Shown one piece after another: positions 16,855-51,069 of a stretch of 64,000 bases of DNA. Position 1 is the stretch's first letter, and each line of letters begins with the position of its first letter. The DNA is taken from NCBI GenBank assembly GCA_963921825.1, contig OY997589.1:80460523-80524522 (forward strand). Reading direction: 5' to 3'. Both the position numbers and the translations under genes were made by a program. Source of the stretch: Erodium maritimum. Taxonomy: Eukaryota > Streptophyta > Magnoliopsida > Geraniales > Geraniaceae. Under the pieces are notes generated by a model, which made no database searches, was not told where the DNA came from, and was given only the letters and a program-made list of their open reading frames with translations.

Positions 16855-17233
16855 GGATAAATTACAAATATGTACCCTTAACTTATCACGTTTATCTGAT
16901 ACCTATCCACAACTTTTTTTAAACTGATACCTACCCAGATGTTTAGTTATATGACAAATAGACCCTTTTTCTCTGTTAACTTTTTTCTAAAATGACGAAA
17001 ACGCCCTTAGTGATTTTTTAAATATTTTTTTATAAATAAAACTGAAGTGATTAAGTAAGTATATATATATATATATATATAACAAAAGTGATTTTTTAAA
17101 CAATTATTGAAGTGTGGTTGAGGGTATTTTCGTCATTTTAGAAAAAAGTTAACAGAAAAATGAGCTATTTGTCATATAACTACACATCGGGATAGGTATT
17201 AGTTAAAAAAAGTTAGGGGTAGATAATTTACCC
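16855..17233. mobile_element. Foldback MITE with 9-bp target duplication
   Basis: The two halves are inverted copies of each other. The left arm runs from GGATAAATTAC through 'agttatatgacaaatag' to 'cttttttctaaaatgacgaaaa', and the right arm is its complement. The perfect 9-bp repeat TTTATATAA flanks it (16846-16854 and 17234-17242). Size (379 bp) and a 9-bp duplication fit a Mutator-type MITE. A short AT microsatellite (17058-17081) lies at the centre. It is nested within the CACTA element. Confidence 0.88.
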
Positions 17234-33210: not shown

Positions 33211-33609
33211 CTAGGACTATGTAAAAAGTATAACCGAAATGTTTTGAATGATTTTATTGAAGAGTCTAAATTCCTTTATATAGAAGGATACAAGATTCAT
33301 ATAAGAAAATAAATAATAAATGATTATCTAATTTAATTATCGTAATCAAATAAAATAAAATCAGAATAAATCAATTAGATTTATTATGATATGATTACCT
33401 TCAATAGATTAGGAGTAGGCGAGTCTCAACGAGAGCGAGACAGAAAGAAAAAAAAAAGTTTCTTATTCTTTGTCGTAGATACTAAAGTCCACCAATGTTA
33501 CGGGGGCCAATATAAAAAAATTATATTTATCATTTTATTCTGTTTAAACGAATGGACTTACAATCGAAACTCAACAATGAAAAAACAACCTAAATCTTCT
33601 TTCACTCTA

Positions 33610-34344
33610 TCAGTAATAAATCTGTCCTTTGTTCTTCACGACTTTCATGTGTAACTCCTCCTTCTTGACGCCAGTGACCTTATCCACCATCTTTCCATTC
33701 TTCATCAGTATGAACGTCGGCATAGTCTGAACTCCATATTCTGCCGACACTGACTGTTTCATTCACAGTTTCTTATTAAAGTTACTATGTTTCAACAGCA
33801 AAGAACAAGAACAAAAACATAGGTTGTAAAAGTGATATGTACCACTAGTTTATCGACATCGATTTTGATGAAGTCAACGTCTGTGAACTTGGCCGCCATG
33901 TCGTTGATGGCAGGCTCAAGAGCCTTACAAGGTCGGCACCAAGCAGCTGTGAAGTAAATCACCATCTTCATCCATAACAACACCAAACCCATATCAATAT
34001 TTGGAACAATTGTATGAACATAATTGACAAACGAAGCAAAAGAGCGCTTAATAAGTTTTGCATACCAGCTTTTGGGTTTGCTTGGAGGCCTCGAAACGAG
34101 CCTTCCATTGATTCAATGAAACGAGCTCGATGACACGAGTAGCCTTCCCGTAGGACACTCCTCCAAGTCTTTCTGAGGGAGCCTTCCATTGGGATGAAAG
34201 TGCCCTCTCATAGGACCCTCCATTGAGTGACTTCCCACAAGACCCTCTATCAATCCTCTCAAACTGAGGACTCCATTGGGGTGATGAATGGAAATTTAAA
34301 ACTCGAGTGAAGTTTTCGAAAGACCCTCCATTGAACCTGTCCAT
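33610..34344 (-). CDS. Thioredoxin h-like gene 1 (CRPC active site)
   Basis: Three exons on the minus strand: 34066-34344, 33843-33965 and 33610-33753, all with GT-AG introns in phase 0, giving 181 aa. Thioredoxin h proteins reduce disulfides of target proteins in the cytosol and other compartments. Residues 1-93 are an N-terminal extension ending in the motif VIELVSLNQW..RFE, typical of the first strand and helix of h2-type thioredoxins. The active site in exon 2 is WCRPC (residues 102-106) instead of WCGPC, caused by CGA for GGA. The cis-proline loop TMPTF is intact (Pro146). The extension lacks a glycine at position 2, so N-myristoylation is not expected. Paralogues lie at 38626 and 50115. 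The changed active site leaves activity uncertain, but the frame is intact. Confidence 0.88.
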
Positions 34345-34450
34345 GATCGAAACTAGCTTCCTTGAATACAAAAATTTAAACCCAAGTTGATAATTTAGAG
34401 AAATGTTTTGTAGTTTGTTGTGATGAATGTGAATGTCAAGAGAAGAGTTG

Positions 34451-34458
34451 TTTATATA
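34451..34458 (-). promoter_or_regulatory. TATA box of thioredoxin gene 1
   Basis: TATATAAA on the minus strand, 107 bp upstream of the ATG, within 'ccaagctctatataaaca'. The same context precedes the other two thioredoxin genes. Confidence 0.75.
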
Positions 34459-34571
34459 GAGCTTGGTATTGATGGTGAGCAAATTGTTAATGCCTTTGCT
34501 TTAAGGTGTAAGATTCTATACAGTTGGCTTTTCATCACAAGATATATTTATCAGGTGATAAACGAACTCCC

Positions 34572-37979: not shown

Positions 37980-38538
37980 TATTGTTTCTGTAGTAATAAA
38001 TGGATGTGAATGAAACATGTGCAAGAGATTATTACACTATCAAAACGTGGGACAAAGTGACATGGTTCTCGAACTTGTGTCTCTGGGGATACAACATTGA
38101 CTATGTTGTTGCCTTTTCTGATATAATATAAATACGGTACTGAGCCGACCCGGAATAAACTTTACCTTGTCTTTCACGTTTATATCCTCGAAAATTATAA
38201 GAAGCATCATATTCTTTGCGGCACTGAACAAATATATTGTATACTTCCATTCAAACACTTGAAATGGACTCCTCACTTGGTTAAGTCCTTGGTTTCTTTT
38301 GTATTCTATGGTCTAATCCAAAACTAATGTTTAGTGAGTATCTATTCTTAGAACATAAAATATGTCGACAAAAGACCTTCGCATGGCCAATCACTACTGC
38401 GAACGAATCAAATCAGATGGTTTCATTTTATAACCTTTGAATTGAAAAGGGGCCATACGATAAAAGTGTCAACAGTATAGAATCCTACAGACTGAAAGCA
38501 AAGACATTAACAATTTGCCCACCATCAATACCAAGCTC
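37980..38538 (+). repeat. Duplicated upstream region of thioredoxin gene 2
   Basis: This matches 49705-50025 upstream of thioredoxin gene 3. Shared blocks include 'aaacatgtg.aagag.tt.tt.cac', 'agtgacatg.ttct', 'tggggatacaa.attgactatg' and 'aaatacggtac'. The gene was thus duplicated together with at least 0.6 kb of promoter, which has since diverged by indels. Confidence 0.75.
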
Positions 38539-38546
38539 TATATAAA
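38539..38546 (+). promoter_or_regulatory. TATA box of thioredoxin gene 2
   Basis: TATATAAA, 80 bp upstream of the ATG, in the shared context 'ccaagctctatataaa'. Confidence 0.78.
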
Positions 38547-38625
38547 CAACCCTTCTCAAAACATTTACATTCATCACAACAAACTACAAAGCATTTCACT
38601 AAATTATCAACATCTTCCTTCAATC

Positions 38626-39327
38626 ATGGACAGGTTTATTGGAGGGTCTTCCGGAATCGGTACTCGTGTTATCAAGCTCCATTCATCGTCCCAATGGAGC
38701 CCTCAGTTTGATGGGAACTCACTCCATGTAGAGTCCTACGGGAGGGCACTTTCGTCCCCATGGAAGGCTCCCTCAGAAAGGCTTGAAGGACAGTCCTACG
38801 GGAAGGCTACTCGTGTCATCGAGCTCGTTTCATTGAATCAATGGAAGGATCGTTTCGAGGTTTCCAAGCAAACCCAAAAGCTGGTATGCAAAACTTGTGC
38901 ACTCTTTTGCTTCTTTGTTCATTATGTTCATACAATTGTTAAATATACTGATATGGGTTTGGTGTGTGTTTTGGATGAAGATGGTGATTTACTTCACAGC
39001 TGCTTGGTGCGGACCTTGTAAGGCACTTGAGCCTGCCATCAATGACATGGCGACCAAGTTCACAGACGTTGACTTCATCAAAATTGATGTTGACAAATTA
39101 GTGGTACATATTTCTCTTTAAGCCTATGTGTTTGTTCTTGGTTGAAACATAGTAACCTTAATACGAAACTGTGGATGAAACAGTCAGTGTCAGTACAATA
39201 TGGAGTTCAGACAATGCCAACTTTCATACTGATCAAGAATGGGAAGCAAGTGGATAAGGTCACTGGCGTCAAGAAAGAGGAGCTACAGATGAAAGTTCTC
39301 ACACACAAAGCACAAGTTTATTATTGA
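38626..39327 (+). CDS. Thioredoxin h-like gene 2 (CGPC active site)
   Basis: Three exons: 38626-38883, 38981-39103 and 39184-39327, giving 174 aa, with phase-0 GT-AG introns of 97 and 80 bp. It should reduce protein disulfides as a thioredoxin h. The active site WCGPC is at residues 95-99 and the cis-proline loop TMPTF at Pro139. The closest type is h2-like, judged from VIELVSLNQW, FTAAWCGPC and MPTFILIKNGK. The N-terminal extension of 86 residues contains two versions of the 'TRVI.L.S..QW...F' segment (near residues 13-29 and 62-76), so the family's strand-helix start has been duplicated within exon 1. It has no Gly2 for myristoylation. A poly(A) signal-like AATAAA is at about 39447. Identity with gene 3 is high in all exons. 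Confidence 0.92.
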
Positions 39328-40509
39328 TCGGATCAAGCCTCAAAGTCATTTTTTTACTCGTAGCTGTTTAAGATTTTGAGTTTTGATTGTAAGCAATACT
39401 TTTCTTTGTTTTTTTAAAGATGATTGTAAGCAATTCGTTGAAAGGAAATAAAAAGATTCATATTTCTTGACGTCAGGCTTATGTAAATATGACTAAGGAA
39501 GAGGAGGAGGGAAGGTGCCTTAGTAGTTATCATACAAGTTGTCCCAAAAGGGACATTGATGCCAATATCATGCAAAGACTGCCAAAGAACCCTGAAATGC
39601 GCTGGGAGCAATGAATGTAGGAGAGAAGATAATGAAGTCAGTTATAATCTTAAGTTTGAAACATAATTTTGAGAGGCTAGTCATGAATGATTCTAAAACT
39701 GTAAATAGCTTCTAAAAAAACTTCAGGTACTAACTATCTCCAACTTGTACATCTCATGAATTTGCTACTGACTTATTAGTCGATCAGATCAGTACCCTTG
39801 ACTTATGATAACTACACAAACGAATATTTTCCGTTAGAAATGACAGAAGACGTTAGAAAAAACTCTAAAAACTAAATGTCATATGACAATTGAAATCAAA
39901 AACTTTACTGTAGACTTGTTATTTTTTGGAGTTTTTCATAACATTTTCTTTCATTTCTAACGAAGAATGTTAGTTTGTGGAATTACCATAAATCATGGAT
40001 ACCGATTTGGTGAACTAATAAGTCAGCAGCAAGTTTTTGAACAGCACAACTCTACGATAATTAATTCTTGGTTTTACCCCTAGCTTCTACTTAAAGTTAA
40101 CTAATATTGTGAATTACATCAGATCACTGGGTTATGAGATGCCTGAGACACAGATAGTAGAAAAACTTTTCTACTTTATGCCTGATAACTTTTTTCCTAA
40201 TATTTGGTCAGTATTCTAAATTGTAGAAGAATTCTTTAATTGCAGAGAAATTGGGCATAATAAATGGAAAAAAAAAGAGAAGAGGAGAAGTGAATTTTAC
40301 CTAATATCCCACAACGACGAGCATGTGCTAATTTGATGGTAGTGTGTGCGATAAAAAGAGAAGATGTGCAACTTAAAGACCGCATAACAAGATTATGGGT
40401 GATTGTTGTATTTAATCTTGTTATGTAAATATATGATATGGTTCTGGAGTAGTTAGGTTTTATTATAAGTAAGCAATAGTTTTATATTAATGAAATAGGT
40501 AGAAGAGGA
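39328..40509. other. 3' flank and intergenic, no gene found
   Basis: The first 150 bp match the 3' flank of thioredoxin gene 3 ('gttttga.tgtaagc'). A short minus-strand ORF at 39414-39611 has no recognised family. The rest is AT-rich. Confidence 0.4.
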
Positions 40510-42048: not shown

Positions 42049-42257
42049 TATTAAGGAATATAAAATAAAGAGCTACTTATAAGGTTAGTGTCACACAAAT
42101 TAAAAAGGTTGATCTATTAGTTGTAGTAGTTTGACACGATATAAGTGGTCCGCTTGAAACAAAATTTATATGGTATCAGAGCTGGTTGGACCCACAGTCC
42201 ATTTGTCACTTCCACCATGTGATTTATAGTCCAAAATGTAAATTTCCATTCTTCCTA
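42049..42257 (+). mobile_element. TRIM unit, left part (LTR, primer site, start of interior)
   Basis: LTR-like sequence (42049-42170) matches the TRIM LTRs at 47953-48626 and is followed directly by a perfect primer site TGGTATCAGAGC (42171-42182). The interior continues to 42257, where the Gypsy element is inserted. It resumes at 47907/47912 with the matching remainder, polypurine tract and next LTR. Confidence 0.8.
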
Positions 42258-44895
42258 TGTAAAACCCACTTCGTTTTAAAAGGGTTTTATTTTGCAAACT
42301 AAAGTTGAGGGTATGTTTTTACAACAAGTTGTTTGGAAGGGAAATCAATGAGAGGCTGGACTGGAGATTTAGGCTTGACTGGGCCCATTTAGGCTGCAAG
42401 ACCGGCCCAGGTCAGCTGAGCCGAGACCGGCCCAAAGGGCATGTTTAAAAGGGGCAAACCCTAAGGTTCGGGCACTGTTCACCCGTCCCTCTTTACTCGC
42501 CTCTCTCTCTCTGAGAACCAGACGGACGTCTCGCCGTCGTCGCCGTTCTCCGATCCCGACCTCACCTTCCTTCCTCTACCTCACCGTGCTCTGCCCTCTA
42601 CTTCACCTTCTACTTCGAACCCGAGCCAGAAACCCGTTCCTCTCTCCCTCCGTTTCGATCCTCGACAGCCGACGTCAACACCCAGTGCCGCCGTACCAGA
42701 TCCGAGGATTTTTCGACGAAGGTGAGCTGAATCCTCACCAGAATCGTACTCCCCGTCTTCTTTTTCTTCTGAAACCGCGAGTTCGAGCCGTTTGGGAGGT
42801 CGGACGGTGCCGAGAGCGTCGCCGGAGCGCTCGAGTTTCCGATCTGGAACTCGCGCGCCGGCGAGCTCTTGGCCGTCAGATCTGGCCCAAAGAGGGCTTG
42901 AACCTCGCCTACCACCCGTCCCTTTGGCTTCCCAGACTCCTGGCGCCCAAACCGCCGTGTAAACCGTCGTCGCCGCTGCCGCCGGAGCCGACGGAACCCT
43001 AGCTCCGACCACCGCCGTTCCTCGCTCCGACTGGGCCAGAACGAGTCTTGGGCTCGGGCCTGGAGTTGAGCTGGGCCGCGAGCTGGATCTAGTTCGGGCC
43101 TTGGCCCGGTCTGACTCTAGGTCTCGGGTCCGGACTCGGGTCGGGACCCGGGTCTGGGTCGGGCACGGGCTGGTCCGGGCCTGGGTCTAGATCCGGGTCT
43201 GGATCCAGGTTTGGAGCGGGTCTAGACTCAGGTTGGACCGGATCCGGGTCGGCAGATCTAAGTAAATAATTATTAAATTATTTGGACTAAAATCTGGTTA
43301 ATTTAAAGACGTTTTGACCTTCCGAGAACCTTGAACTTGAGATCTGATTGAGGCTTTTAAACTGTTTAAAACAGACTTGGATTTCGGGGACTTCGCCTTG
43401 GAAGACGGTGTTGGCCCGATCGTCCGCAGCTAGAAGACGCCGCCTTGTCACCATCTCGAGGTAGGGAAAGTATCGAACCCCTCCTCAATTTTGGACTGTT
43501 AAACTAGTATGCATGACTAGGGTTATTAACAACCGGAACGACTAGTATGCATGACTAGGGTCATTAGTAACCGGAACGTCTTAGTGACACATAGGTAGAA
43601 CTGTTATATTATTAGTTTAATCGGACGAGTCTTGATAATACTTGGAACGAACATGTTTGATATCCGGTTGACTTGCTTGTACTTTCTGGGAAATTGTTGT
43701 GCCGATAGACGGACCACGTCTAGGTCCTAGGGTTGCGTGCTGTGTGTTTACTCGCTGTGTGGGAGTCTAATTAACGTCATAATCGCTGTGTGAGAATCTA
43801 AATAATATTATAACCGTTGTGTAAATGTCTAAATAGAATTAGCATCGATGTTGCATGATGTGACTGTGTGGGCAAGTGTGCCATGTGTGACTATGTGAAT
43901 CCTTGTTTGTGAAATGATCGGGTGAGTGATAGACCGGGTGTATGCTAAGATGGTTCGGCTGGTATACCGAGACCATCAGTGAGTGTGCTGTGTGCGAAAC
44001 CCTGTGTGTGTTTAAGAGACGGCGTAGCCGGATGGATAATCATATCGAGACCAAGGATGGCGTGTTCAGATGACTCATAATCCGGGATGGGATTGATCAA
44101 GGAGTGTGCCGGTTTTATATTTACGTTGAGTAGAGCCCTTCATCTGTGTGAGGAGGAAGATATCGTGACTGACGTTGTGTGTTCCAGTGCGAGATAAGCA
44201 GTTGTGTGCAAATCGATGGAGTTCCAGTTCGGTACATATTAGAGTAGCGCCCTTCATCTGTGTGAGGAGGAAGATATCGTGACTGACGCTGTGTGTTCCG
44301 GTGCGATATAATCAGTTGTGTGAAAATCGATGGAGTTGACTCCCGCAATTTACGACATCTGTGTGCGTTTCATCCGGACCCTTCCCCGTTGTTTGCTGTG
44401 TGCCGTCCTATGGACTCTATGTGTGTTCTGTTGTGTGCCTTTCTCTCTGGTTCGTCTGTGTGTGTTACAAGGAGTTTTATACTGTGTGGTTGGGTTGGTA
44501 AGAGTTTTGCCTAGAGACAACTTGTTGGATCTTCTTCCTAGTTTACCCTAATTACCGTTTCTACCGTGAGGTTAAAAGGTGTGTTTGGAGTCCTTTTACT
44601 TTTCCTACTGAGCGTAAGCTCATCCCTCTTGTCGTTGTGGTGTTTCAGGTGTTGCGCGGGAGCAGTACTAGCCGGACTCTCGGAGCTTGGGAGCTGCTGA
44701 GGGTTTAGCTAGGTTTAGAGACGTACATCTTTTTGGTTTATGTTGGACTTTGTATTTTACTATTTGAGCTGTGACTCTTCACTTTCGGAAGTTTATATTC
44801 TTTATGAAACTTTATTTTTTTTTATTTCTCTTGTTTTACTGTAAATCTTTAGTCGCGTCTCGAATTCGGTCAAAGACCGGATTTGGGGCGTGACA
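42258..44895 (+). repeat. Gypsy LTR1 (plus orientation)
   Basis: This 2638-bp LTR has termini TGTAAA...GTGACA. Its U5 end GGATTTGGGGCGTGACA is shared with the solo LTR ending at 58348 and, inverted, with those starting at 20475, 47388 and 51706. The interior includes GC-rich degenerate 'cgggtctgggtc' repeats (43080-43250) and a 120-bp tandem duplication ('cttcatctgtgtgaggagga') at 44137-44375. There is no protein. Confidence 0.85.
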
Positions 44896-44898
44896 ATT

Positions 44899-44973
44899 TG
44901 GTATCAGAGCCTGGTTTCAATCCAGGGACCTGTGGGCTATGGGCCCACCACGCTTCCGCTGCGCCACTCTGAT
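44899..44973 (-). tRNA. Initiator tRNA-Met sequence with encoded CCA (captured primer)
   Basis: The minus strand reads a full 72-nt initiator tRNA-Met plus CCA. The acceptor stem ATCAGAG/CTCTGAT pairs perfectly. The D-arm is GGCGCAGCGGAAGCG, and the anticodon arm GTGGG/CCCAC holds CAT. The T-arm CCTGG/CCAGG surrounds ATTGAAA. Compared with the standard plant sequence it differs by one base next to the anticodon and a few changes in the T-arm, one pair compensatory. CCA is added after transcription in eukaryotes, and the sequence abuts the LTR end with the usual 3-base gap, so this is a copy of the primer tRNA rather than an ordinary tRNA gene. The internal A and B boxes are present, so transcription is conceivable. 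Confidence 0.9.
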
Positions 44974-45159
44974 GTCAACGTACTCGGAGAGCGAAACAAG
45001 AAACAACAAGGTAACAACTTAAACGAAGCAAAAGTTCACAACCGAAAAAGTAAATAAATGCAACAAAACCAAACGAGTCAAAAACAAGACTTGAAACGAA
45101 AACACAAATCTAAAGTCAAAGCAAAAGCAACTCCCGGACTCTCGCTAGTCCTACGCTCC

Positions 45160-46599
45160 TCAATACCCTCTAGCGCGCTGGAAGTCACGAACGGTCTCAC
45201 GATCGGAGTCCTGTCTCTCTGCCTGTGAATCGACAACAGCATACACCCGACCACGCCGCATCGGGGGTCCGCCTCTCGGAGGTGATGGAAGTACCACCTG
45301 CTGTGCATCGCGATGTCTCGGTGCTGGTGCGCTAGCTGCCTGTCTCGGCGCCCTCTGCGTTTGAGCCTGACGCTGCTGGAACTGTGGCGAGTGCCCCGTC
45401 TGGGACTGCTGTGGACGCGGAGCTGGCTCCACCGGGTACGACTCGGGGCACCTGGAAGCGAAGTGTCCGGGCCTGCCACAACGCTGACACAGTAGTGGTC
45501 CGACACTCGACCTCTCCTCAGGTCTCCCCATCTGACGATCCACAGATCCGTCGCTCCCCGGGCAATCTCGTGCCATATGCCCTGGCTGTCTACAGCGATA
45601 GCAAGCGCGCCCCGGCGCGGGAGGTCCAACCGAAGCTACTGAACCAACCTGACGTGGTCCTCTCAACTGGGTCTGCGGCTAAAATGATCCCGAGGTCCTC
45701 TGCCTCCTAGGATCCCGAGACTCAGACGGTCTCTGTGAACTGCTCGATCTGGGTCTGACCTCCCGATCTCTAGCTGACTCCCTGAAGCGTCGCTCTATAG
45801 TCTGAGCCTGCTCCACTAGCTCGGAGAACACCTGGGTCCTCAACACAGCGACCATGTCACCAATCGCCGGATGGAGCCCTCCCTCAAAACGTCGGCATCT
45901 GAGATCCTCTGACTGCACCATCTCCGGAGCAAAGAGAGCTAGAGTGGTGAAGCGCGCCTCGTAATCCGATACCGACAGACTCTCCTATCGCAGGTCCAGG
46001 AACTGCTGACGTCTGTCATCCAGCACGGCTCGGGGAAAGTACTGCTCGAGGAAGCGCTGCCCGAACAGTACAAAGTCATCTCCCACCCGAGTCTGCTCCC
46101 GGCGCCACCAGTAGTAGGCCTCCCCTTCCAGGTGGAAGGCTGCAAATGATACTCGGAGTCTCCCGCTCACTACCCCAGAAGTGTCGAGGTTGCGGGTAAT
46201 CCGGTCTAGCCATCTCTCGGCGGCCTCGGGGTCTGGATCCCCAGAGAACACAGACGTGCCAAGCTTGCGGAAATTCTGCAATGCCTGTGAGGTGGAGCTG
46301 TCGACCTGAGTAGGTCCATCAGAAGTCGCTGCAGTCGCAGCAGGTGTCGGCTCTAGTGTAGGAGTTGCAGCCTCTCTACGGGCGAAGGCAGCTGCCAGCC
46401 CCTGCACTGTCCGGGTCAGCTCTTCAAAAGCTGCCGCCTGAACTGTATCAGTCCTCTCATGCCCCCCAACGGGCTCAGCTTGGGCACTGGTCGCCCCGAC
46501 AAACTCAGCAGTAGGCTGCTGTCCCCGGCCCCTAGCTGGCCGTCCTCGGCCTCCAGCTGGCCGTCCTCGGGTGCCTCGTGGAGCATACGTACGAGCCAT
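45160..46599 (-). pseudogene. gag: Gypsy gag pseudogene (capsid and two zinc knuckles)
   Basis: One minus-strand frame runs through the whole gag, with only two stop codons inside (about 45985 and 45679). It starts MARTYAPRGTRGRP, an Arg/Gly/Pro-rich leader. The Retrotrans_gag region follows (VFSGDPDPEAAERWLDRI, then FHLEGEAYYWWRRE and FLEQYFP). After the first stop come the capsid end (YEARFTTLALFAPEMV), an RRFRES basic part, and two CX2CX4HX4C zinc knuckles (CYRCRQPGHMARDC and CQRCGRPGHFASRC). The frame ends at 45160 with no protease or polymerase following. It packages retrotransposon RNA in intact relatives. Few disruptions suggest a fairly young element. Confidence 0.88.
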
Positions 46600-46781
46600 G
46601 ACGAAGATCCTCTGTAAGTCCAACACACAGGTTTCAGTTTCTTAAACGAAGAAACACACACTTAACACTAGTTAACGCCACACGCAAACTGCCTCACTAA
46701 CACTTATAGTAGTAATAAGCTAAATATAATAAAGTCACACAAATGCACACAGCAGAGAAGTTGCACATTAGTGCTTTACAC

Positions 46782-46782
<1 letters not shown>

Positions 46783-46820
<38 letters not shown>
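46783..46820. repeat. (AT)n microsatellite
   Basis: About 19 AT/TA dinucleotides in the untranslated leader between the gag start and the primer site of the minus-oriented Gypsy part. Confidence 0.95.
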
Positions 46821-46825
<5 letters not shown>

Positions 46826-47366
46826 TAGGGTTACAACCCAAAACACTTAGTAACAAGCACAAACATGTCACACAGACTACCGAATTATTTCACAGGGCAA
46901 AATCACACAGTTCAACTTCCAACCAATTCAAGTTCTTATTGATATCATAAAGCATATAACGTTCATGTTAATCTCTCGTCGTTACAACCCTGCTCAGGCG
47001 TCCCCGAGTTGCGTTGTAACCACTAGACATCCCACCATTCACATCTAGCTACAGTGGCCCCTATCGCTGAATTGTGATGGTACGTACACTTCAGTTTTTG
47101 CAGAAAATCGAGCATGACCCATTCGTAAATTAGGTCGACCATCCGCTTATGCGGGAACAGTAATTACCAAAAACACACCTGTTTACACAATATAACAAAG
47201 TCCACGGCACTCAGGCCGGCACAACACAAATCCGAGACTCATTCCGTCTCGTTTCCACGCATAGGACAAACTCCGACTTGCGTAACCGACACACAGTAAC
47301 CTATCGACCCAACACTACCCACCTAAGTGACGTACGGTCCGAGGTTTTGAAAATCATTTCAAAAGT

Positions 47367-47384
47367 AACCAGGCTCTGATACCA
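47367..47384 (-). other. Primer-binding site, minus-oriented Gypsy part
   Basis: TGGTATCAGAGCCTGGTT on the minus strand, 18 nt complementary to initiator tRNA-Met and ending where methylated A58 normally stops copying. It lies 3 bases from the LTR2 edge at 47388. Here the match ends at 18 nt, unlike the full-length tRNA copy at 44899-44973. Confidence 0.9.
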
Positions 47385-47387
47385 AAT

Positions 47388-47906
47388 TGTCACGCCCCAA
47401 ATCCGGTCTTTGACCGAATTCGAGACGCGACTAAAGATTTACAGTAAAACAAGAGAAATAAAAAATAAATAAAGTTCCATAAAGAATATAAACTTCCGAA
47501 AGTGAAGAGTTACAGCTCAAATAGTAAAATACAAAGTCCAACATAAACCAAAAAGATGTACGTCTCTAAACCTAGCTAAACCCTCAGCAGCTCCCAAGCT
47601 CCGAGAGTCCGGCTAGTACTGCTCCCGTGCAACACCTGAAACACAAAAACTTGTTGGATCTTCTTCCTAGTTTACCCTAATTACCGTTTCTACCGTGAGG
47701 TTAAAAGGTGTGTTTGGAGTGCTCAATTGATGATAGCATCACTCAAGGAAATGCTATAAAGGGTGATGTCTTGGGTTCAAGTCTCACCAACAACCTAGGT
47801 TGGTATTTGTCTGTGGACAATACACCAGAGGGGTTGGGGTGTATTGGGCTGCAGACCTAACATCGCCGCGCGTGGACCCCTATGTGGGGCACGGCGGGAT
47901 GTTACA
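47388..47906 (-). repeat. Scrambled Gypsy LTR2 end
   Basis: 47388-47645 is the inverted copy of the last ~245 bp of LTR1 (44650-44895). Then 47645-47725 repeats LTR1 bases 44518-44600 in the plus orientation. The remaining ~180 bp contain a tRNA-like B-box (GGGTTCAAGTCTC near 47776) and an A-box-like GCTCAATTGATGATAGC near 47722, suggesting an inserted SINE. The terminal TTACA is followed by the TCCTA duplication. Confidence 0.65.
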
Positions 47907-47911
47907 TCCTA

Positions 47912-50114: not shown

Positions 50115-50873
50115 ATGGACAGGTTTAATGGCGGGTCTTGCAATGGAGGGTCCTATGGGAGGGCACTTTCATCGCAATGGAAGGCTCCCTCGGAAAGGCT
50201 TGAAAGAGAGTCCTACGGGAAGGCTACTCGTGTCATTGAGCTCGTTTCATTGAATCAATGGAAGGATCGTTTCGAGACTTCCAAGCAAACCCAAAAGCTG
50301 GTATGCAATACTTATGCACTTTTGCTTCTTTTTGCAATATGTTCATACAATTTTATTTTCTGATCATAGAAGTTTTATAGATCCCTCCCGAGAGATGGGA
50401 GGCAGTCTGAATTAAACAGACTTAAAAACAAGGATACAAACGCGGAAAGTGTTCATATATGTTCATACAATTGTTACATATTCTGATATGGTTTTGGTGT
50501 TGTTTTTAATGAAGATGGTGATTTACTTCACAGCTGCTTGGTGTGGACCTTGTAAGGCTCTTGAGCCTGCCATCAACGACATGGCGACCAAGTTCTCAGA
50601 CGTTGACTTCTTCAAAATCGATGTTGATAAACTAGTGGTACATATTACTCTTGAAATCTAAGTCTTTGTTCTTGTTCTTTGCTGTTGAAACATAGTAATC
50701 TTAATATGAAATTATGTATAAAACAGTCAGTGTCAGCCCAATATGGAGTTCAGACAATGCCAACATTCGTACTGATGAAGAATGGAAAGGAAGTGGATAG
50801 GGTCACCGGCGTCAAGAAGGAGGAGCTACATATGAAAGTTCTCAAACACAAAGCACAAGTTTATTACTCATAG
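50115..50873 (+). CDS. Thioredoxin h-like gene 3 (CGPC active site)
   Basis: Three exons: 50115-50300, 50515-50637 and 50727-50873, giving 151 aa, with phase-0 GT-AG introns. The active site WCGPC is at residues 71-75 and the cis-proline loop TMPTF at Pro115. The N-terminal extension is shorter (62 residues) than in genes 1 and 2. It keeps the 'SYGRALSSQWKAPSERLE' and 'SYGKATRVIELVSLNQW' parts but lacks the first 'TRVI...QWSPQF' copy. The protein ends with one extra serine. Intron 1 is 214 bp against 97-100 bp in the paralogues, because of an insertion flanked by 16-bp repeats. It looks functional, with an intact frame and conserved catalytic residues. Confidence 0.92.
50337..50472. repeat. 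Intron insertion with 16-bp direct repeats
   Basis: ATATGTTCATACAATT occurs at 50337-50352 and again at 50457-50472, around 104 bp absent from the two paralogous introns. A direct repeat of this size resembles a retroposon target duplication, but the insert has no poly(A). Confidence 0.8.
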
Positions 50874-51069
50874 AGTCATAGTCTCAACTCTCAAGCCCAA
50901 GAGAATTATAGTATTTTGATTGTTTTTTCACAGTTGAGTTTTGACTGTAAGCCCATTAGTTGAAAGCAGAATAAAAATATTGACATTTTTTTGGTGCTGG
51001 CGTTGATAATAACCGGTGATTGACTCATATGACTTAAAAGTAAATTAAGTAACTTTCATCCTTGGATTT

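Follow-up and report, generated by a model that had tools for sequence, protein, structure and literature searches.

The window, i.e. the whole 64,000-nt stretch of DNA that was analysed, carries an insertion of 5,649 bp (42258-47906) which starts with TGTAAAACCC and ends with GATGTTACA, has TG/CA ends and is bordered by TCCTA on each side. Its parts, and the basis of each assignment, are as follows.

42253-42257, no strand: left target-site duplication (TSD) TCCTA, identical to 47907-47911
42258-44895, plus strand: complete LTR1 (TGTAAAACCC...GTGACA), 95.4-95.7% identical over its whole length to both LTRs of the relative L046
44896-44898, plus strand: ATT spacer between LTR and primer binding site (PBS), as in relatives (sequence read)
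44899-44973, minus strand: complete tRNA-Met(CAT) with CCA, 75 nt, as reverse complement after LTR1 (ARAGORN and sequence read)
44931-44973, minus strand: tRNA nt 1-43, a stretch which the element family also carries internally in sense (alignment with relatives)
44974-47366, minus strand: inverted interior with gag 3' flank, gag and leader, 92.9-94.9% identical to L040, L041, L045, L046 and L047
45163-46599, minus strand: gag with two in-frame stops at 45985-45987 and 45679-45681 (reading frames and Pfam)
47367-47384, minus strand: canonical 18-nt PBS (sequence match to the tRNA)
47388-47644, minus strand: LTR2, the last 257 bp of the LTR, inverted, 98.6% identical to LTR1
47648-47718, plus strand: short forward LTR piece, equal to LTR1 from 44519 and preceded by 3 extra A (match to LTR1)
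47719-47906, plus strand: SINE-like segment ending TGTTACA, the right end of the insertion, 93.7-94.6% identical to copies in L009 and L036
47907-47911, no strand: right TSD TCCTA, identical to the left TSD

The interior runs opposite to LTR1, and the inverted PBS together with 257 bp of LTR closes the right side. Over 278 bp, a length that takes in the PBS, LTR2 and LTR1 differ by 3 substitutions and 1 indel. For gag, Pfam gave zf-CCHC with 47.6 bits and Retrotrans_gag with 23.9 bits, the latter just below the cut-off of 24.1. The joint between the forward LTR piece and the SINE-like segment is ambiguous over 47717-47720; as a guess, the right-end joint at 44519 might have arisen via a transcription start at the TATA-like stretch near 44485.

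When the flanks of the insertion were joined, they aligned as an empty site with neighbouring repeat units (73% over 504 columns). Because TG/CA ends and a TCCTA duplication enclose the whole as one insertion, the chimera was probably one DNA molecule already before integration. The right-hand joints were spanned by 0 of the other 77 matches (40 best scored of 2,281 candidates), and no second copy of the composite was found among the scored candidates (best 40 of 1,495 and best 40 of 2,281).

Copies of the SINE-like, tRNA-type segment are located in L009 (777-958, 1149-995 and 1146-1334) and L036 (3012-2825); they have similar ends, followed by short A-rich stretches, and in L009 they form a direct/inverted/direct cluster after another tRNA read-through copy. 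Elsewhere in the window, the self-complementary stretch 16911-17214 (78% inverted self-match) is perhaps a palindromic small transposon, and one repeat occurs in three copies of 88-91% identity (33604-34526, 38470-39328 and 50141-50876), of which one has the opposite orientation to the others.

Relatives in the same genome are composed of LTRs of about 2.6 kb (L046), an 18-nt PBS, gag, a PPT (AAGGGGGG) and a second LTR. The features of an LTR retrotransposon, i.e. TG/CA LTRs, PBS, PPT and 5-bp TSD, were found in this family, with PBS and PPT in L040 and L041 and LTR pairs in L040, L041 and L045-L047; the window copy itself has no PPT. No long pol-like frame (>260 aa) was present from the PBS to 1.3 kb past the internal tRNA half in L040, L041 and L042. 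Judged by its sequence, the source family is a non-autonomous, gag-bearing LTR element, presumably of Ty3/gypsy type.

Complete tRNA-Met copy at the primer site

ARAGORN called a single tRNA in the window, tRNA-Met(CAT) at 44899-44973 on the minus strand, which we take, from plant sequences and PBS usage, to be the initiator rather than an elongator tRNA-Met. The predicted fold of 44899-44973 is the cloverleaf, with a stability ordinary for its composition (z -1.71). Read along the plus strand, the LTR end GTGACA is followed by the spacer ATT, by TGG (the complement of CCA) and by the entire tRNA, and this spacing (ATT, then TGG) equals that at the sister PBS at 47367-47384. The tRNA with its CCA begins exactly at the PBS position and copying passes A58 (75 nt, >18 nt); at the sister PBS the match to the tRNA stops after exactly 18 nt, and ACTTTTG follows. 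The window copy was not listed by the Rfam tRNA model, which lists the genes L010 and L011 (53.8 bits) and also L014 (38.2 bits), a copy with 3 mismatches.

With CCA left out, 44902-44973 matches at 97% in ten places of the genome (763 Mb, 40 contigs). Six of these ten equal-scoring places were read and are all mutually identical; from this common tRNA gene the window copy differs at 2 of 72 positions, which could be later mutations. A search with a 38-nt pattern, which genes with more than 3 mismatches would escape, gave 32 matching places, 13 of them gene-like without TGG and 19 with TGG (one as TGT). Flanks were read for five of the 13 gene-like loci and for two further gene-like loci. Nuclear tRNA genes have gene-type flanks and no encoded CCA; the window copy has CCA, and its flanks are LTR and gag.

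The preliminary description had placed a complete tRNA-Met with CCA at a retrotransposon primer site, beginning at 44896. The ARAGORN call, the length of 75 nt, the cloverleaf and the CCA after LTR and spacer agree with this, except that the tRNA starts at 44899 and 44896-44898 are the 3-nt spacer. A fold with a covariance model had been proposed as a check; ARAGORN and the predicted cloverleaf agree with a tRNA, but the Rfam tRNA model did not list the copy. That CCA is absent from the genes was confirmed, since all 13 gene-like loci lack it, and the 18-nt limit ascribed to the sister PBS is indeed present. The claims of a mature-tRNA template and of primer read-through gain support from the CCA, the exact LTR-PBS spacing, the 18-nt sister PBS and 26 further loci in the genome with CCA-type tRNA at a PBS, where errors cluster opposite A58; one of these loci (L014) is a second complete 75-nt copy.

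CCA-type copies across the genome and errors opposite A58

The 27 loci tabulated (window included) carry a CCA-type tRNA at the PBS position, one of them reading TGT. The tRNA match extends over 28-75 nt before the first interruption, and in L030 and L039 it resumes past a one-base gap. The eight bases preceding the PBS occur in 20 different forms among the 27 loci, some from related families, and the following 12-mers are all distinct (27 of 27). For some of the loci the upstream sequence was demonstrated as LTR.

A downstream partner could be named in 8 of the 27 loci (five inverted, two sense interior, one tandem LTR). The window, L014, L022, L031 and L035 continue into inverted element sequence. 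In L022 (271 columns, 89%), L031 (224 bp, 96%) and L035 (108 bp, 87%) a partial tRNA is joined to the LTR-like sequence that also lies upstream, here in inverted orientation. Continuation is into sense copia reverse transcriptase in L029 (RVT_2, E 5.7e-16), into sense copia gag in L032 (Retrotran_gag_2, E 8.7e-23) and into a second LTR in tandem in L018 (324 bp, 99%). L029 is a copia deletion product of 963 bp with the order LTR-PBS-46 nt tRNA-RT-LTR, LTRs 96.7% alike and the TSD CTATT. For L036, its own family's 3' region was considered as partner and not counted, as the match is weak (36 nt at 75%, E 6e-4). Repeats surround the tRNA copy in L019, L027, L037, L095 and L096.

The second complete copy, L014, combines the full tRNA with an inverted architecture in a copia element. 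Its joint lies exactly at tRNA nt 1 and leads to other sequence; within the inverted part lies copia gag (Retrotran_gag_2, E 3.4e-7), beyond which come a PBS, also inverted, and some 40 nt of LTR. An 83-aa reading, which we take to be integrase-like, had no Pfam match. L014, known from part of the element, appears to be a CCA copy in an element without the internal half.

The genome holds 3,514 exact copies of the 18-nt PBS. In the search that left position 19 free, 13 of the 19 rows with an exact first 18 nt run on as tRNA to at least position 27, roughly 0.4% of the exact PBS copies. Several read-through end points lie at 64-66 nt, presumably just before a possible m1G9. In five copies the tRNA match ends near position 25 (...GATCCTT type; C2:6687995, C1:63843371, C2:61813235, C5:68674557 and C7:48442038), and these perhaps all stem from a single amplified element whose PBS is slightly longer.

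A58 is the template for position 19 of the copy; in primer tRNAs this base is m1A58, as stated in the available part of PMC13191261. In the 27 loci this position reads T in 15, A in 7, C in 4 and G in 1; it is wrong in 12 of 27, compared with 22 of 648 at the remaining positions in the range 4-28, a result favoured by L094-L100 (5 of 7 wrong), which came only from the position-19-free search with rows chosen by hand. For this reason a separate test, treating all positions alike, was applied to the 19 CCA-type rows of the 38-nt pattern search. Here position 19 is wrong in 6 of 19 (permutation P about 4e-5; P 0.001 for any position), the next most variable positions being 12 and 25 with 3 each. 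The gene-like rows have T in 13 of 13. All 39 CCA-type rows of the position-19-free search read T in 20, A in 9, C in 9 and G in 1; the 27-locus table leaves out 12 of these 39, among them 5 ending near position 25. Such an excess of errors opposite A58 is a putative signature of a modified tRNA template. Opposite A58 the window copy itself reads T, the correct base, and hence has no misincorporation mark, therefore the signature supports the class and not the window copy alone.

Origin of the inverted composite

The joint between gag and tRNA in the window is the same in five relatives, with one base differing next to the joint. In the relatives, tRNA nt 1-43 stand in sense orientation after gag, some 620-840 nt before the PPT. 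A pattern of this half plus 5 nt of flank had 939 genomic matches with at most 3 mismatches (100 of them among those listed) and 0 with the reversed control.

According to the preliminary description, read-through may also explain the inverted gag. The order LTR-tRNA-inverted gag fits this suggestion, but the gag-tRNA joint is not new, as it is common to the relatives. Since these relatives carry the 5' half in sense at the same joint, the inversion of gag most likely arose from a switch of the read-through DNA onto the identical 43-nt stretch, and not from a new joint at the tRNA end. In L014 the joint is at the very end of the tRNA to other sequence, therefore such homology is not the only route.

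We consider primer-tRNA read-through with a switch within the tRNA 5' half and further joins, followed by integration, to be the best explanation of the locus, and quite probably the correct one. Plus-strand strong-stop DNA (U3-R-U5-PBS) would have been copied through the attached initiator tRNA, past A58 and without the 18-nt stop. The nascent strand would then have switched within the tRNA 5' half to the identical 43-nt half after gag in the element RNA, and copying would have run back via gag, leader, PBS and U5 toward the RNA 5' end, yielding LTR - tRNA - inverted gag - PBS - inverted LTR. Additional switches or joins would have brought in the forward LTR piece and the SINE-like segment, and the double-stranded product would have integrated with a 5-bp target duplication. 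The right end, with its forward LTR piece and SINE-like segment, costs this proposal two more switches or joins. The anatomy, the CCA, the gag-tRNA joint common to the relatives, the TSD and the genomic series with its A58 signature can be read from the sequence; the order of the switches, the action of integrase and the m1A58 state of the window tRNA are what we infer rather than observe.

Alternatively, read-through might have proceeded to the tRNA 5' end and gag been joined anew by run-off and a non-homologous switch, the shared joint then being coincidental or the window copy being the source of the family's half. The joint of L014, exactly at tRNA nt 1 and to other sequence, is of the kind expected from such a course; what speaks against it is the identical joint in five relatives, among them one that differs from the window copy by about 17%, and we regard it as improbable. 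The window insertion is also a poor source candidate, since the 3 substitutions and 1 indel that separate its LTR parts suggest a recent date, and the window element was rejected as source of the internal half since the 17% diverged relative has the half too. Recombination or gene conversion at the DNA level, between an element with 18-nt PBS and internal tRNA half and a tRNA gene, could use the homology of both parts to the gene, and the PBS could supply the CCA. It leaves unexplained, however, the partial copies that end inside the tRNA after many upstream sequences, and the clustering of errors opposite A58, where gene-like rows read T in 13 of 13; we consider it very improbable.

The full tRNA called by ARAGORN would also suit an LTR element inserted beside a genuine tRNA gene, an objection already raised in the preliminary description in the form of a tRNA-Met locus with the same flanks. 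This is contradicted by the CCA, by the other flank of the tRNA, which is element sequence common to the relatives, and by TSDs outside the whole structure, and its probability is practically negligible. An assembly artefact joining unrelated reads seems scarcely credible: the composite is known from assembled sequence alone and has no second copy among the best 40 of 1,495 and the best 40 of 2,281 candidates, but the 5-bp TSDs match, the ends are TG/CA, an empty site could be aligned and the same class of joint recurs at 26 other loci. A chance origin is ruled out by the intact 75-nt tRNA and by reversed-pattern controls, which gave 0.

Internal tRNA half and known systems

As a conserved internal part, the initiator tRNA's 5' half (43 nt, in sense) occurs in L040-L053 and L054-L092, which belong to a large group of non-autonomous elements. 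It was present in 39 of 39 copies selected by the downstream flank only, these being all listed matches besides the query's own locus (best 40 of 1,049 candidates, nearest to L050). In the half, identity to L050 averages 0.963 vs 0.84-0.87 in four flank blocks, with 0.92 in the 20 nt before the half and 0.71 in the 20 nt after. Compared with the tRNA gene, the half is exact in 7 of 40 copies (L050 included) and has 1-4 mismatches in the others. A 15-copy sample, biased as its copies had been found through the half itself, gave 0.97 for the half vs 0.48 on the upstream and 0.68 on the downstream side (68 divergent pairs among 105), and the comparison was redone with the choice by downstream flank.

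The half could be kept either by selection or by repeated renewal from the primer tRNA. Its 8-nt palindrome UGGGCCCA would suit RNA dimerisation, a lead only; Ty3 dimerises through palindromic tRNA 5' ends, as described in the available part of PMC5371799. Tentatively, and with more doubt than confidence, we suggest that the lineage gained the half from the primer tRNA that it uses itself, by run-off of reverse transcriptase at the tRNA 5' end, that this half is now selected as a tRNA mimic acting in cis, with a role in RNA dimerisation, packaging or translation, and serves as the switch point of read-through, and that the copies in the genome form a fossil record of m1A58. The conserved internal half may be the larger finding, and raises a new testable question on the use that a retroelement makes of a piece of its own primer.

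The data indicate that in these LTR retrotransposons the primer tRNA is indeed copied into plus-strand DNA, and that failed A58 stops can become integrated and inherited; for Ty1 and Ty3, the available part of PMC5371799 reports that the primer tRNA is not inherited. Through the errors opposite A58, tRNA modification would become something that can be read off genome sequences and counted from species to species. In the open-access papers searched, most subscription papers lying outside this set, we found no report of a genomic series of primer-tRNA read-through with an A58 mark, which is weak evidence of absence, and likewise, as equally weak evidence, none of an initiator-tRNA half inside gag-bearing elements.

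Two retroviral cases, in MMLV and HIV-1, involve tRNAs Gly, Asp and Glu, none of which is known as the normal primer of the virus concerned. Known already, as far as the accessible text of PMC12220202 goes, are single joints of tRNA and retroviral DNA: a cloned MMLV circle with a tRNA between its LTRs (Colicelli and Goff 1986) and, in HIV-1, HITME recombination with 63-65 nt of reverse-transcribed tRNA (Konstantinova 2006). The Erodium copies resemble both in that reverse-transcribed tRNA is joined to retroviral DNA, yet those were single cloned or cultured cases, unlike the genomic series found here (PMC12220202, same portion). The same portion describes an integrated reverse-transcribed tRNA-Gly with a provirus deletion, similar to our loci in that reverse-transcribed tRNA adjoins a defective provirus (PMC12220202). 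Copying past A58 of the primer tRNA in plus-strand synthesis is likewise known from HIV-1, where plus-strand strong-stop read-through occurs when m1A58 is missing or bypassed, as with impaired methylation; there the products are reverse transcripts in cells, whereas here they are integrated, inherited copies at many places of one genome (PMC13191261, in the part available). Helenus / TRIMp3 and Cassandra are, like the present family, non-autonomous LTR elements carrying small-RNA gene sequence, and in the accessible sections of PMC10886601 (Kojima 2024) the tRNA-like or 5S sequence is located in the LTR of elements <1 kb. In contrast, the family described here carries the initiator-tRNA 5' half inside several-kb elements, between gag and PPT, and has LTRs of about 2.6 kb.
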